DNA of 64,000 bases, taken from positions 186,001 through 250,000 of the forward strand of contig SCVN01000008.1 in assembly GCA_004296885.1 (NCBI GenBank). The letters run 5' to 3'. A model generated the notes under the pieces. That model saw only the letters and a program-made list of their open reading frames with translations, did no database searches and was not told the DNA's origin. Within the stretch, counting starts at the first letter, position 1. Every line of letters starts with the position of its first letter. This stretch comes from Nitrospirota bacterium. GTDB lineage: Bacteria > Nitrospirota > Nitrospiria > Nitrospirales > Nitrospiraceae. Shown here piece by piece: positions 28,811 through 34,581 of this stretch. The translations under genes and the position numbers were made by a program.

Positions 28811-30805
28811 TCAACAACAGCGATCCACGGTAATCCGCAACCCCTCCCCATGGGCCGGAGAAGCCCCGCCCAACGGCACTCCGCCCGGCCCCACTAACAC
28901 CTCGCTGCTCGTACAGGGCTTCCCTTCCACCAGATAGCCATACCATTGGCGCAGACTGTCCGCCAGCACGATCACCGCCAACAGGGCCACCGCTCCCACC
29001 AGCGCCGCATCCAGATAGAGGGGCAAGACCGGCTCGGCGGCCCCGGCTGTTGCCGCTTTGTGCAGGAACAAGAAAGCCAGCTCATAGCAGCCGGTCAACG
29101 TGATGGCGCCGACGAACAGCATCGGCCCGATCGTGATCCAGAGATACCGGGCCTTCTGCATCTTGATCAAGACAGTCGTCCCGATACAGAGGGCCAGGGT
29201 GCCGAGCAGTTGGTTCGCCGCCCCGAACATGGGCCAGATCGTCGAGATGCTGCCGGTCCCGATCAGATAGCCCCAGGCCCCCACCACGAGGGCGCTGCTG
29301 GCCAGCACGCCCGGCCACCAGGATATCTGCCGCAAGGGCCGATAGAGGCGCCCGCCCATTTCCTGCACCAGATAGCGGGCCACGCGGGTGCCTGCGTCGA
29401 TCGTGGTCAGGATGAACAGGGCTTCGAACAGGAGCGCGAACTGGTACCAATAGGCCATCAAGTGCGCCATGCCGGGGAGACCGGAAAAGATCGAGGCCAT
29501 CCCGACCGCCAACGACACGGCTCCGCCCGGCCGCCCGGCCACGTCCGACTCGACGAGGTGGGACAGCTCCTCGATCCGCGAAACGGGAAAGCCCATGGCC
29601 GCCAGCGCCTCCGGCGAGAGCAGCGTGTTGATCGCCAGATAATCGCCCGGCACCAGGACCGACGCGGCGATCAGCGCCATCACGCCCACAAAGCTTTCCA
29701 TCAGCATGGCCCCGTAGCCCACGATGGAGTAGGACTCCCGCGCGATCATCTTGGGCGTCGTGCCGGACGAGACCAGCGAATGGAACCCAGAGATGGCGCC
29801 GCAGGCGATCGTAATGAAGAGAAACGGGAAGAGCGTCCCGGGAATGATCGGCCCACCTCCGTGCACGAAGGCCGTGACCCGCGGCATCTCGATGATCGGG
29901 GCCATCGCCATCACCCCGGCCGCCAGGAGCACGACCACGCCGATCTTCATGAAAGTGGACAGGTAGCCGCGCGGGTCCAGGAGCATCCAGCCCGGCAGGA
30001 TGCTCGCGAGAAACCCGTAGCCGGCCAGGAGCCACACCAGCGTCGGCCGCTCGAAATGGAACCAGCTTGCCGTATCGGATTGGGCCACGAGGCGCCCGCC
30101 CCAGACGGCCAACAGGAGCAGCGCAACCCCCAGCACCGTCATCTCCCCGACGCGGCCCGGACGGAATTTCTGCAGGTAGAACCCCATAAGGAACCCGATG
30201 GGCACCGTCATGGCGATCGTAAACGTCCCCCAGGCATTCCGATACAAGGCGTTGACCACGGCGAGTCCCAGCCCCGCCAGCGCCACGACCACGATGAACA
30301 GCACCGCCACGGCGGTCGTCGCCCCGGTGACGATCCCGACTTCATCCTGCGCGATCTCCGGCAGGGACCGGCCATTGCGCCGCATCGAGGCCACGAGGAT
30401 GATGAAGTCCTGCACCGCCCCCGCCAGCACGGCGCCGATCACGAGCCAGAGGAAGCCGGGCAGGTAGCCGAACTGGGCCGCCAGCACCGGCCCCAGCAGC
30501 GGGCCGGCTCCGGCGATGGCGGCGAAGTGGTGGCCGAAGAGAACATACTTGTTGGCCGGGTAGAAATTCTTGCCGTCTTTGAGCCGGTGCGCGGGCGTCA
30601 CCCGCTCGTCGTTCAGCTCCATGACCCGTCGCGCCAGAAACCGGGCGTAGAACCGGAAGGCGAGGACGTAGAAGCAGGCCGCCGCCACGACCAGCCAGAG
30701 GCCGTTCACCTTTTCGCCCGGATTGACCAGGCCCGTGACGAAGCCGAAGGCCAGCGCGCAGACCGACGCGATCAGCATCCACAGAGCTTTCATCGCCACG
30801 CTCAT
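28811..30805 (-). CDS. cstA: Carbon starvation protein CstA family transporter
   Basis: A polytopic inner-membrane protein of about 664 residues. CstA/BtsT proteins import pyruvate or peptides, usually on starvation. Family motifs include HRLKDGKNFYPANKYVLFGHH (given in part), FAAIAGAGPLLGPVLAAQFGY, SSGTTPKMIARE and the C-terminal MFGAANQLLGTLAL. About sixteen to eighteen helices are apparent. I start at ATG 30805 (MSVAMKALW), upstream of which lies AGGA at a long spacing; the frame remains open further. It stands next to an aminotransferase-like gene and a split decarboxylase, which may hint at a pyruvate-related substrate. Confidence 0.88.
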   Translation of the reverse strand: MSVAMKALWMLIASVCALAFGFVTGLVNPGEKVNGLWLVVAAACFYVLAFRFYARFLARRVMELNDERVTPAHRLKDGKNFYPANKYVLFGHHFAAIAGAGPLLGPVLAAQFGYLPGFLWLVIGAVLAGAVQDFIILVASMRRNGRSLPEIAQDEVGIVTGATTAVAVLFIVVVALAGLGLAVVNALYRNAWGTFTIAMTVPIGFLMGFYLQKFRPGRVGEMTVLGVALLLLAVWGGRLVAQSDTASWFHFERPTLVWLLAGYGFLASILPGWMLLDPRGYLSTFMKIGVVVLLAAGVMAMAPIIEMPRVTAFVHGGGPIIPGTLFPFLFITIACGAISGFHSLVSSGTTPKMIARESYSIVGYGAMLMESFVGVMALIAASVLVPGDYLAINTLLSPEALAAMGFPVSRIEELSHLVESDVAGRPGGAVSLAVGMASIFSGLPGMAHLMAYWYQFALLFEALFILTTIDAGTRVARYLVQEMGGRLYRPLRQISWWPGVLASSALVVGAWGYLIGTGSISTIWPMFGAANQLLGTLALCIGTTVLIKMQKARYLWITIGPMLFVGAITLTGCYELAFLFLHKAATAGAAEPVLPLYLDAALVGAVALLAVIVLADSLRQWYGYLVEGKPCTSSEVLVGPGGVPLGGASPAHGEGLRITVDRCC

Positions 30806-30898: not shown

Positions 30899-31990
30899 TC
30901 ACCGGGCCGCAATCGTGCGTATCGTGCCCTGGAAAGCCGTGAGGAATCCGTCGATCTGCTGCCCGGTCAAGGCGCCCATGTTGGCCACGCGAAAGATCTT
31001 CCCCTCCAACAACCCCTGCCCCGGATAGATGACGTAGCCCTGCTCCTTCAGCTTGTCGTGGAGCGCCTGATAGGTCACTCCGTCCGGCAGATGATAGGCC
31101 GTGAGACTGTTGGACTGCAGTTCCACCGGTAGGACCGGTTTCATCCCCAGTGCGTCCATCTTTTTCCGAATCTGTGCCGCGGCGTTCTTGTAGCGCTGGA
31201 TCCGGGCGGCCACTCCCTCCTCCAACAATTCGTTGAGCGCTTCGTCGAACGCCTGAAAGACTTGCACCGCCGGGGTGACGGGGCTGCTCCCCTTCTCCGC
31301 GTCTTCATAGTAATGGGGCAGGTGCAGATACCAGGACCGTTTGGGATAAGCCTTCATCCGCTCCATGAACCCCTTGCGAACCAGCACGAAGGACACGCCG
31401 GGCACCCCCTGGAGACAGTCATGAGCCGTGCCGGCCACCATATAGAGGTGCGGCCCAGCCACGTCGAGTTCTTCCCCGCCCAGGCCGCTGACCGAGTCCA
31501 GGACGAAGACGCGGTTCAGGCTGTCGGCCACCTCGGCCATCTCCTTCACGGGATTGATCAAGCCCGTCGTGGTCTCATGGTGCACCATCGCGACCACGTG
31601 GACTTCCGGGTGCTGGCGCAACGCCAGCCGCAGCTTCTCCGGGTCCGGCCTCGTGCCCCAATCCAGCTTGAACTCGTTGACCCCCAGCCGGTGCACGCCG
31701 ACGATGGAGGAGAGGCGCTCGCCGTAGACGCCATTGTTGATCACCAGCGCTCGCTTGCCGTTCGGGAGCGAGGAGAGCACCGCCGCTTCCACGGCCGCGC
31801 TGCCCGAGCCGGTCAGGAGCACCGCGGTATAGTCCGCCTCCGCCCCTGGCACGAACGCCTGAACCAGCTTTCGCCTGATCCCTTGCATGAGGTCCGCAAA
31901 CTCAGACTCCCGATGGCAGAGATCGGGACGTTGAAGTGCCGCGCGCACGCGCGCCGACACATTGACCGGGCCGGGGCTTAACAGAATCAT
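30899..31990 (-). CDS. PhnW-like aminotransferase-fold protein lacking the PLP lysine
   Basis: The 363-residue protein aligns by eye over its length with 2-aminoethylphosphonate--pyruvate transaminase (PhnW): ILLSPGPVNVSARVR, GSGSAAVEAAVLSSLP, VHHETTTGLINPV, VLDSVSGLGGEELDV and DCLQGVPGVSFVLV. In PhnW the last block is preceded by Asn-Lys (NKCxQGVPG) and that lysine binds PLP. Here the same place reads His-Asp (AHDCLQGVPG), and no lysine lies in the preceding 35 residues. The Asp that contacts the PLP ring nitrogen (VLDSVSG) is retained. It follows the two decarboxylase subunit genes, so a phosphonate- or sulfonate-linked role is likely, but transamination is doubtful. Confidence 0.75.
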   Translation of the reverse strand: MILLSPGPVNVSARVRAALQRPDLCHRESEFADLMQGIRRKLVQAFVPGAEADYTAVLLTGSGSAAVEAAVLSSLPNGKRALVINNGVYGERLSSIVGVHRLGVNEFKLDWGTRPDPEKLRLALRQHPEVHVVAMVHHETTTGLINPVKEMAEVADSLNRVFVLDSVSGLGGEELDVAGPHLYMVAGTAHDCLQGVPGVSFVLVRKGFMERMKAYPKRSWYLHLPHYYEDAEKGSSPVTPAVQVFQAFDEALNELLEEGVAARIQRYKNAAAQIRKKMDALGMKPVLPVELQSNSLTAYHLPDGVTYQALHDKLKEQGYVIYPGQGLLEGKIFRVANMGALTGQQIDGFLTAFQGTIRTIAAR

Positions 31991-32069: not shown

Positions 32070-32648
32070 TTATTCGATGGCTTTCCGGAACCGTTCGGCA
32101 ATCTGGGCCGGTGGGAGCGGAACCCAGGGCACATCTTCCACTTGCTCGGTGATCTTGACCAGCAACAGACTGGGCCCGTCCTTCCCCAGCATGTCCTTGA
32201 ACTCGTAGACCAGGTCCTCCCGCTCACGCACCCGCTCCACGTTCACGTAGCCGGCGGCCTTGGCGACCTGGTCCAGCTTCACGACCCGCGAATAGGACGG
32301 CTGGTTGCCCCCGCTCCCATAGACTTCGTTATCCAGCACCACGTGGATGAAGTTTTTCGGTTTCAGCGCGCCGACCGTCGCCAACGTGCCCAGGCCCATC
32401 AGCACGTTCCCGTCCCCGTCCAGCACCACGACCTTTTTCTGCGGCTTGTGCAGCGCCACTCCCAGCCCGATCGCCGCCGCCATGCCCATGGAGCCGGTCA
32501 TATAAAAATTCTCGGGACGGTCTTTGACCTTGAAGGCTTCCCGCGAGGCGAACCCATTGCAAATGATGACCGGCTGATCGCTGACCAGGTCCAACAGGGC
32601 TTGGATCGCCCTGGCCCGGCTCTGCATGGTCCCTTCTTCCGGTCTCAT
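32070..32648 (-). CDS. ThDP-dependent decarboxylase beta subunit (phosphonopyruvate/sulfopyruvate type)
   Basis: A 192-residue C-terminal (pyrophosphate) domain of a split ThDP decarboxylase. The ThDP/Mg motif is clear: VVVLDGDGNVLMGLGTL and, about 27 residues after GDG, the N of VLDNEVYGSGGNQ. SMGMAAAIGLGVAL precedes it. Proteins of this layout are the beta chains of phosphonopyruvate decarboxylase (Ppd) and of sulfopyruvate decarboxylase (ComE). The start is ATG 32648 (alternative ATG 32627, with AAGGG upstream). It pairs with the alpha-type gene upstream and is followed by the PhnW-like gene. The substrate cannot be chosen between phosphono- and sulfopyruvate. Confidence 0.83.
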   Translation of the reverse strand: MRPEEGTMQSRARAIQALLDLVSDQPVIICNGFASREAFKVKDRPENFYMTGSMGMAAAIGLGVALHKPQKKVVVLDGDGNVLMGLGTLATVGALKPKNFIHVVLDNEVYGSGGNQPSYSRVVKLDQVAKAAGYVNVERVREREDLVYEFKDMLGKDGPSLLLVKITEQVEDVPWVPLPPAQIAERFRKAIE

Positions 32649-32679: not shown

Positions 32680-32758
32680 AGTTATCAGTGTTCTGTGATC
32701 AGTTCTCAGTTTCCGGAACTGACTACTGAGAACTGGATACTGACAACTTTGATTCACG
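32680..32758. repeat. Heptamer hairpin array 8
   Basis: Left units GTTATCA, GTGTTCT and GTGATCA; right units CTACTGA, GAACTGG and ATACTGA. This is the cleanest array: ten consecutive 7-nt units with an inverted symmetry centre near 32715. It closely resembles array 5 and lies between the two decarboxylase subunit genes. Confidence 0.85.
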
Positions 32759-32760
32759 TT

Positions 32761-33258
32761 TCACGGCTGAATCCCACGCACCACGCCGCTTTTCAGGAGC
32801 AGCGCGACGGGAATGCGTTCCTTCATGAACGTCTGCGCGACCCAGCGAAAATCATCGGAAGCCGTCTGCTCAGACAGGGTCCGGTGAGGAATGCGGACCG
32901 TCTCCAGCACCTGCGTCACGGTCCGGCCCATGACAAGGTGCTCCGGCGCGTCTTTTCCATCGAAGCCCCGCCAGGCGATGACCAGCAGGCAGGGCTGGCG
33001 ATAGAGCAGGTTCAACGAGGCCAGTGTATTCAGGCTGTTTCCCACGCCGGCATTCGCCATCAGCACCGCCGGGACCCTGCCGGCCATGAAGGCGCCGGCC
33101 GCCATCGCCACGGCTTCATCTTCGCGGACCGCCGGCGTGTAGAGGCGCCGTTCGATCAGCGTCTCGATCACGCCCGCCAGCAACACATCCGGCACACCCG
33201 TGAAGAAGTCGAACCCGATATCCTGCAAGGCCTGGCAAAACGCATCGCTCTCGATCAT
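32761..33258 (-). CDS. ThDP-dependent decarboxylase alpha subunit (phosphonopyruvate/sulfopyruvate type)
   Basis: A 165-residue N-terminal (pyrimidine) domain. FFTGVPDVLLAGVIE, then the catalytic glutamate in VREDEAVAMAAGAFMAG (Glu that activates the ThDP aminopyrimidine), then MANAGVGNSLNTLASL and VIAWRG...DAPEHLVMG, the last being characteristic of phosphonopyruvate decarboxylase. ATG 33258 (MIESDAF) matches the family start and has TGGGG upstream; ATG 33288 would add ten residues without a site. No PEP mutase gene is present in the window. Confidence 0.83.
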   Translation of the reverse strand: MIESDAFCQALQDIGFDFFTGVPDVLLAGVIETLIERRLYTPAVREDEAVAMAAGAFMAGRVPAVLMANAGVGNSLNTLASLNLLYRQPCLLVIAWRGFDGKDAPEHLVMGRTVTQVLETVRIPHRTLSEQTASDDFRWVAQTFMKERIPVALLLKSGVVRGIQP

Positions 33259-33374
33259 GACGCCCCATGACGAAGGATTCGCCGACATCCGCCGATTGAA
33301 GAACGGCGCATTATAGCGAAGCCCCTCCCGACTTCACAAGGAACGGGTCGCCCGCGCCCCTCGCGCCGCGCCGA

Positions 33375-33404
33375 TTGAGTTCGCTTCCCCAAAGATGCTA
33401 TGGT
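33375..33404 (+). promoter_or_regulatory. Putative promoter of the tandem secreted-protein genes
   Basis: TTGAGT (33375-33380) and TATGGT (33399-33404) are separated by 18 bases and lie 29 bp before the chosen ATG. The match to sigma70 consensus is moderate. Confidence 0.4.
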
Positions 33405-33432
33405 TTCGCGACCTGCGACGGAATGGACACCG

Positions 33433-33984
33433 ATGCCCCCTCTGATTGCCCACAGCCGGCCCCGTCTGACTGCAGCACTGATCTTGCTGGCTTGGCTCTG
33501 GCCGGCCCCGTTTCTCCCGGCCACCGTCGAGGCAGGCACCTTGCTCAACGACCCCAAGGGATTCCGCAACATCCCCTGGGGCTCCCCGCTCACCAATCAG
33601 GCGGAGCTGGCCCTGATCCAGAACATGGACCGGGTGAAGGGCTATGAAGTCCCGAAAGAGCCGCCTCATCTGGGAGAGACCACCGTCGAATCGGTCCGAC
33701 TCTTCACGATCGACGGCCAGTTCGGCCGGGTCACCATCCGGTATCAGGGCAAAGACACTCATGACGCGGTCCTGGCGTATCTCCAATCCCAATTCGGCCC
33801 GATCGACCGGTCGCCCGGCTCCATGATGCGAGGCCTCAACCAGCAGTACAATTGGCGGGGGACCGACACGGAGATCAACCTGACCTATGAGGCCAAGCGG
33901 GAGCGGGGCTACCTGTTCATCGAAAGCCGCACCCTTTCCCCCCGGTTCAACGATGCTCTGGCAGACACAGGCTCCAGTTACTGA
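33433..33984 (+). CDS. Secreted protein, first of a tandem paralogous pair
   Basis: A 183-residue exported protein of unknown function. A signal peptide with hydrophobic core LTAALILLAWLWPAP probably ends near VEAGT; the mature part has NDPKGFRNIPWGSPL, TIDGQFGRVTIRYQG and GLNQQYNWRGTDTEINLTYE. These three blocks recur in the next gene. ATG 33433 is used because the earlier ATG at 33400 lies in the -10 region. Single-domain periplasmic proteins of this form are common in Nitrospira-like genomes, to my knowledge without assigned function. Confidence 0.75.
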   Translation: MPPLIAHSRPRLTAALILLAWLWPAPFLPATVEAGTLLNDPKGFRNIPWGSPLTNQAELALIQNMDRVKGYEVPKEPPHLGETTVESVRLFTIDGQFGRVTIRYQGKDTHDAVLAYLQSQFGPIDRSPGSMMRGLNQQYNWRGTDTEINLTYEAKRERGYLFIESRTLSPRFNDALADTGSSY

Positions 33985-34522
33985 CGCCCGCCCGCGCCGG
34001 TTGCGGCGCGCGTCCGGTTCGTCCACATTCTGCCTGCTGGCTTTCGCGATCCTTTACCTGTCGTCCCCCTCTCCCGCTTGGGCTGTCACGATGGCCACCG
34101 ATCCCAAAGGGTTCGAGGGAATTCCCTGGGGCGCGGCGCTGGCCGAAGCGCCGACGTTTCCGCTCACGTACTCGGAAGACCGAATCAAGGAATACCAGCT
34201 CAAGCAGGAGCCCCTGCTGATCGGGACTGTTCCCGTCCAATCCATGAAGTTCTCCACCGTGGATGGGAAGTTCGCCCGTGTAACCGTCCGCTACCAGGGC
34301 GCGCTCCAGCACGAAGCCATGCTCCGCTACCTCCAGGCCCGCTACGGCCCGCTCGACCTGACGCCGGGCCAGACCATGGCCGGCGCCAACCAGCAGTACA
34401 ACTGGCGCGGCCCCGAGACCGAAGTCAACCTGACCTATGACGGCAAACAAGAGACCGGCGTCGTCTTTTTTGAGAGCCGCGCCCTCGGGGCCAAGTTCGC
34501 CGAAATCATGAGCGGGTTCTGA
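33953..34522 (+). CDS. Secreted protein, second of a tandem paralogous pair
   Basis: A 189-residue paralogue of the preceding gene: ATDPKGFEGIPWGAAL, TVDGKFARVTVRYQG and GANQQYNWRGPETEVNLTYD match block for block, giving a clear tandem duplication. A signal peptide (FCLLAFAILYLSSPSPAWA) follows a basic N terminus. ATG 33953 overlaps the end of the first gene by 32 bp; no good ribosome-binding site is visible, so coupling is likely. Function unknown. Confidence 0.72.
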   Translation: MLWQTQAPVTDARPRRLRRASGSSTFCLLAFAILYLSSPSPAWAVTMATDPKGFEGIPWGAALAEAPTFPLTYSEDRIKEYQLKQEPLLIGTVPVQSMKFSTVDGKFARVTVRYQGALQHEAMLRYLQARYGPLDLTPGQTMAGANQQYNWRGPETEVNLTYDGKQETGVVFFESRALGAKFAEIMSGF

Positions 34523-34581
34523 CCGACCCGACCCGTTTCCCCGCCGCTTGCCGCGCCAAACGGCTTATGATAACATCTCCG

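Follow-up and report, generated by a model that had tools for sequence, protein, structure and literature searches.

The window analysed here, a 64,000-nucleotide stretch of a Nitrospirota genome (G000 in our comparison; contig C8), encodes a PhnW-like protein of the 2-aminoethylphosphonate (AEP) transaminase family in which the PLP lysine is replaced by aspartate. At the level of sequence, the descent of this gene from an AEP transaminase is shown by comparison with its relatives in the order Nitrospirales, which was taken as the comparison group. The protein is probably non-transaminating and has a new job, and the reading that we favour, with about an even chance of being correct, is that it is a PhnW-derived pseudoenzyme kept as the partner of a decarboxylase whose substrate has changed. 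The loss of transaminase activity, the partner role and the new decarboxylase substrate are the parts of this reading that we infer.

The PhnW-like protein and its neighbours

The locus comprises the following features:
28811..30802, minus strand: CstA carbon-starvation transporter (PF02554; synteny)
30899..31990, minus strand: PhnW-like protein of the AEP transaminase family lacking the PLP lysine, 363 aa (TIGR03301; AlphaFold2 model)
31418..31423, minus strand: codons of His190-Asp191 (alignment to PhnW structures and codon reading)
32070..32648, minus strand: PP-domain subunit of a split phosphonopyruvate/sulfopyruvate-type ThDP decarboxylase, 192 aa (PF02775; TIGR03846, 193.5 bits; C half of TIGR03297; 9iz3_B)
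32761..33288, minus strand: PYR-domain subunit of the split ThDP decarboxylase (PF02776; N half of TIGR03297; 9iz3_A)
34523..34566, no strand: place of the PEP-mutase–nucleotidyltransferase fusion gene of many lysine-bearing relatives, absent here (synteny)

The PhnW-like gene runs from an ATG at 31990 to a stop codon ending at 30899, i.e., 363 codons on the minus strand in an intact reading frame. Full-length PhnW homology is indicated by the match to the PhnW-AepZ model TIGR03301 (E-value 3.6e-102, residues 2-354), and two other PhnW models are among the best matches. The TIGR03301 score of 342.4 bits is below the curated equivalog cut-off of 360.8 bits, as are those of lysine-bearing orthologues (348 and 350 bits). 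In an ungapped alignment, the window protein reads T-A-H-D-C-L-Q-G-V-P-G where the PhnW structures 1m32 and 9kk8 read S-A-N-K-C-I-Q-G-V-P-G, placing Asp191 at the PLP lysine (Lys194 of Salmonella PhnW) and confirming the absence of this lysine that a preliminary description of the locus had noticed in the motif AHDCLQGVPG.

By that description's own terms, its reading would fail if there were a sequencing error at 31415-31425 or a nearby lysine at the Schiff-base position. A sequencing error is ruled out, since His-Asp-Cys is also found at this site in three other species of the window's genus, one of which uses different synonymous codons, and since Lys to Asp takes two base changes; these three species, together with other genera, likewise exclude an assembly error or frameshift. 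In the alignment, no compensating lysine was gained near the site and shared by the lysine-less clade, and Lys is enriched in the lysine-less proteins only at positions 119, 213 and 277, mostly through R/K exchanges. A second, lysine-bearing PhnW in the window's genome was also considered and rejected, as the other class-V matches are only 30-31% identical and are not orthologues.

Residues S62, G63, H138, D165, Q194, T239 and R334 are kept in all ten lysine-less proteins of the alignment (see below), and some of them, as we assume from class V homology, contact the phosphate and the ring of PLP and the anionic substrate group. The PLP-ring Asp (D165), the substrate Arg (R334) and the phosphate-loop residues S62-G63 and T239 are all present in the window protein. 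Its AlphaFold2 model has an intact fold (pLDDT 93.4; TM 0.94 to both 9kka and 1m32, at 33-34% sequence identity), which bears out the earlier statement that fold and cofactor residues are preserved. The best Foldseek match, 9kka, is Vibrio vulnificus PhnW K193M solved with PLP and AEP, which shows that a PhnW without this lysine is able to hold cofactor and substrate. The same lysine is gone in both proteins; however, 9kka is an engineered mutant with Met at the site and represents no natural lineage. Non-covalently bound PLP has also been described in structures of PhnW and Tde1415 (PMC6697681).

The decarboxylase gene pair lies directly upstream on the same strand and forms with the PhnW-like gene a three-gene operon that is conserved across the Nitrospirales. 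The two subunits are homologous to the two chains of RhiEF, a heterodimeric phosphonopyruvate decarboxylase (PDB 9iz3), in agreement with the split phosphonopyruvate-type decarboxylase proposed earlier, and they match sulfopyruvate decarboxylase models as well. As in RhiEF (9iz3/9iz4) and ComDE, the PYR and PP domains are separate subunits and the ThDP motifs are kept, the alignment showing GDGN and the activating-glutamate region. The conserved start of the PYR subunit is probably an internal ATG (MIES...) near 33258. An imperfect inverted repeat with 24-nt arms (32687-32748) lies in the gap separating the two decarboxylase genes.

The window protein resembles known AEP transaminases (1m32, 9kk8 and the PntC-AEPT 6pd1) in fold (TM 0.94), length, PLP anchors and the adjoining phosphonopyruvate-type decarboxylase, whereas it differs from them in lacking the Schiff-base lysine, in the change of F196 and A323, positions that vary hardly or not at all across the order, and in its missing pathway partners.

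Distribution of the lysine and of the pathway genes

Among 236 Nitrospirales genomes, 214 have a PhnW-like orthologue at E<=1e-70; at the same threshold, none was found in the genomes sampled elsewhere in the phylum. The lysine site was read in 101 orthologues (81 from the main alignment and 20 more), of which 91 have the lysine, usually as AGKCIQGFPG. The ten lysine-less proteins belong to nine genomes of four genera, g1, g8, g12 and g20 (the f1 clade), and to G060, a genome of another family. Genus g1, which includes the window, reads HDC, g8 QGG, g20 QEC and g12 HVG, while G060 reads SGAC and its genus mate G072 SGKC. Position 191 is thus occupied by D, G, V or E in the f1 clade and by A in G060, and position 190 is His or Gln throughout the f1 clade and mostly Gly elsewhere; Gln190 is also seen in lysine-bearing orthologues. 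Since Gln-Gly, His-Val and Gln-Glu stand at this site in the sister genera that have also lost the lysine, the sequences indicate that His-Asp is no conserved substitute and that the residue at the old lysine site can vary freely. The preliminary description had treated His-Asp as a specific substitute and called for orthologues that share it; these do exist in four species of the window's genus, but the other lysine-less genera differ, so that a conserved His-Asp dyad is rejected and the idea that His-Asp takes over the chemistry of the lysine is weakened.

The four genera form one clade in both the decarboxylase-pair and the PhnW-like trees (FastTree support 0.98 and 0.99; IQ-TREE support 97 for the decarboxylase pair), and a single clade of all ten lysine-less genomes is rejected (AU p 1e-28). 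The lysine has been lost at least twice independently. In family f2, the PhnW orthologues (L132, L133, L134 and L135) have a C-terminal extension of about 60-70 aa, which in L134 (2280-3578) is a charged low-complexity tail (KAAEEARKAEEA...).

The gene set of lysine-bearing genomes comprises a PEP-mutase–nucleotidyltransferase fusion, the split phosphonopyruvate decarboxylase, PhnW, a PntC-like nucleotidyltransferase, a CDP-alcohol phosphotransferase and a flippase-like protein. In their operon, PhnW is followed by a LicC/PntC-like nucleotidyltransferase (PF12804), a CDP-alcohol phosphatidyltransferase (PF01066), an LPG_synthase_TM protein (PF03706) and then cstA, and in many of them the divergent upstream gene encodes a PEP-mutase domain fused to an NTP_transf_3 domain. 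In the window, cstA directly follows the PhnW-like gene, the three intervening genes being missing, and the gap at 34523..34566, between the DPKGF-type reading frames and a TetR gene, has nothing in it. These DPKGF-type frames (33400-34522, plus strand) encode two tandem, related, small, secreted-looking proteins with a DPKGF motif and no Pfam family, which are retained next to the operon across the family.

A genome-wide search found neither the PEP-mutase fusion nor the PntC-like nucleotidyltransferase in any of the ten lysine-less genomes and no CDP-alcohol phosphotransferase in nine of them, G060 having only pieces of one, while all ten retain the decarboxylase pair and the PhnW-like gene. 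In the window's genome, the PepM domain of the relatives gave no match at E<=0.001, and PF13714 gave only a partial match of 36.6 bits in a 264-aa reading frame. Wherever the locus of a lysine-bearing genome was read, that genome had the nucleotidyltransferase; in G070 and G078 it lies outside the operon, beside their PEP mutase. Apparent absence of PepM does not predict lysine loss well, as eight lysine-bearing draft genomes (G029, G056 and six others) without detected PepM all keep the lysine and the nucleotidyltransferase. The operon-linked nucleotidyltransferase is a good predictor of the lysine state, and PepM absence in drafts a poor one. Judged by gene content, the loss of the lysine is linked with the loss of the pathway ends, a link that rests on few events because there are only two independent losses.

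Selection and changed sites

Within the lysine-less genera, pairwise dN/dS of the PhnW-like gene is 0.10-0.22 (NG86) or 0.04-0.14 (YN00), somewhat above the NG86 values of 0.04-0.12 for lysine-bearing pairs of the same family, and the reading frame is unbroken in all nine f1 genomes. The gene is under purifying selection in these genera, which, with its full 363-aa reading frame, upholds the earlier view that it is intact. A catalytic residue has been lost and purifying selection has been kept, and the gene is in this sense, judged from its sequence, a pseudoenzyme.

Root-to-tip distances in the lysine-less clade exceed those of its sister group 2.4-fold for PhnW and 1.9-fold for the decarboxylase; on a related measure, neighbouring genes give 1.1-1.2-fold and these two proteins about 1.3-1.4-fold. 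The order outside this clade has 77 invariant PhnW sites; the lysine-less clade departs from the invariant residue at 31 of them and a similarly sized sister set at 4 (Fisher p 1.8e-7). The remaining columns vary to the same extent in both groups. By homology, the changes appear to fall in active-site motifs, i.e., the N-terminal PGPVN loop, DLCHRE, GSGT, the lysine motif and the VIYAGQG loop; g8 and g20 have, in addition, lost the PGPVN loop along with further invariant residues of the motifs. Changed in all nine clade members are K191, F196 and A323 of PhnW, S80 and I95 of the PYR subunit, and I51, T113 and R175 of the PP subunit, whereas six control clades show zero or one such clade-wide change. 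In G060, K191A is accompanied by N5S and D312G, in parallel with the main clade, where these two sites have changed as well.

The decarboxylase changes include motif residues shared with RhiEF: S80A and T113G/S occur in nine of nine f1 genomes and Q78 is changed in eight. S80 lies in QNSGLG and T113 in STG, motifs that are kept in RhiE and RhiF, respectively; the window proteins read MANAGVG, as opposed to MQNSGLG in RhiE and the lysine-bearing relatives, and YGSGG, as opposed to STG in RhiF and the same relatives. The PhnW-like protein and the decarboxylase thus changed in a coordinated way on the clade stem, at otherwise invariant sites.

Proposed function and alternative explanations

We propose that the ancestral gene encoded the AEP transaminase of an order-wide Nitrospirales pathway, in which a PEP-mutase-type enzyme would be followed by the split phosphonopyruvate decarboxylase, PhnW, the PntC-like nucleotidyltransferase and the CDP-alcohol phosphotransferase, so that AEP would finally be placed on a lipid or another surface molecule. 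In the common ancestor of the four genera, the first and last steps would have been lost and the decarboxylase pair and PhnW kept; on the same branch, PhnW would have lost its PLP lysine and the decarboxylase would have changed at motif positions near its cofactor. The pseudo-transaminase would then have been retained, probably still binding PLP, PMP or an anionic ligand, as a structural or allosteric partner or a product binder of the ThDP decarboxylase, which in this clade may now use a non-phosphonate 2-oxoacid. The partner role is possible given that the TSB-like pseudoenzyme of eudicots activates its partner TSA (PMC12727527); this protein is likewise derived from a PLP enzyme, non-catalytic and retained alongside the protein with which its parent enzyme is paired, but it belongs to another fold type and pathway, and partner activation in the window system is inferred only. 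More boldly, and with a distinctly small chance of being right, the system may be a ThDP decarboxylase with an obligate third subunit, a PLP-binding, lysine-less ex-transaminase that catches or steers the aldehyde product, which would have arisen once the two ends of the pathway were gone, and once more in a different family.

The faster evolution of both proteins also fits partial relaxation, which counts against the partner reading. Slow decay is, with a lysine-independent PLP enzyme, one of the two main rival readings, though an unlikely one: the pathway would be gone, the decarboxylase would have been reused and the PhnW gene would be an operon passenger drifting towards a pseudogene. The active-site loops do erode differently genus by genus, at the 2.4-fold higher rate, and G060 has only a few changes, as in early decay. 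However, the frame is intact in nine of nine f1 genomes, within-genus dN/dS is far under 1, variation at the columns that are not invariant does not exceed that of the sister set, and the gene was never broken or lost in four genera, although other pathway genes were deleted.

The retained R334 and D165 are compatible equally well with an active, lysine-independent PLP protein, which counts against the pseudoenzyme reading. The preliminary description had leaned this way, suggesting a lysine-independent PLP enzyme, a dehydratase-like protein or a binding protein; it is supported in part, and it did not include the loss of the lysine together with the rest of the phosphonate pathway. A PLP/PMP enzyme that, like the ColD-type dehydratases, works without Lys and has new catalytic groups to replace it is again improbable, though several points speak for it: the fold is intact, the PLP and substrate anchors are complete in ten of ten lysine-less proteins, position 190 holds His or Gln throughout the f1 clade as against mostly Gly, and PLP is held non-covalently in the PhnW and Tde1415 structures (PMC6697681). 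Against it, the residue at 191 varies (D, G, V, E, A) with no conserved replacement, Gln190 also occurs in lysine-bearing orthologues, and in g8 and g20 the PGPVN loop is gone together with further invariant residues of the motifs. ColD-type PLP dehydratases, which are lysine-independent, have the aminotransferase fold and act on nucleotide-sugar substrates, carry a fixed His at the lysine position, whereas the window lineages have no conserved His there.

The matches of the decarboxylase halves to sulfopyruvate decarboxylase models could place the genes in coenzyme M/sulfonate metabolism or in phosphonate degradation rather than make them a relict of phosphonate synthesis, but this is very improbable: no ComA was found in the lysine-less or lysine-bearing genomes tested, no phosphonatase PhnX scored above cut-off, and the lysine-bearing relatives carry the PepM-family fusion and nucleotidyltransferases. 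An ordinary AEP transaminase using another lysine, or a sequencing or assembly error, has a next to negligible chance, since no supporting evidence was found, three more species and other genera exclude an error, the clade gained no lysine near the site, and the pathway supplying and using AEP is missing.

Under the preferred reading of a pseudoenzyme partner, the locus is a natural experiment on how a transaminase turns into a pseudoenzyme, with lysine-bearing and lysine-less states, lost pathway genes and partner-enzyme changes readable side by side in closely related genomes and in a second independent case, and it yields clear predictions for a system of three proteins that E. coli can produce. 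Automatic annotation would label the window gene an AEP transaminase, which is very probably wrong. The literature searched contained neither the pattern of a lysine-less PhnW kept after pathway loss nor anything relevant on phosphonate biosynthesis in Nitrospira, and no description was found there of the AEP-type phosphonate pathway, which is nearly universal in Nitrospirales.

Pnt-type clusters, which hold a gene set for AEP synthesis and cytidylyl activation (PMC6697681), share with the lysine-bearing relatives the PepM-family–NTP_transf_3 fusion, a second NTP transferase, Ppd and AEPT, whereas the window genome retains only the Ppd pair and AEPT. They differ from the relatives in that the operon-adjacent PepM of the latter lacks the EDKxxxxxNS motif: the fusion (L069 10431-12110 and relatives, e.g., L063, L068 and L102) reads EDN-V[FY]-PKRCSFYAG in its place, with a lyase-like Cys. 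Other Nitrospirales have a canonical EDKLFPKTNSF fusion at another genome position (the comparison of the fusions also took in L170, L178 and L180), and surveys filtering for EDKxxxxxNS would overlook the EDN-type fusion.
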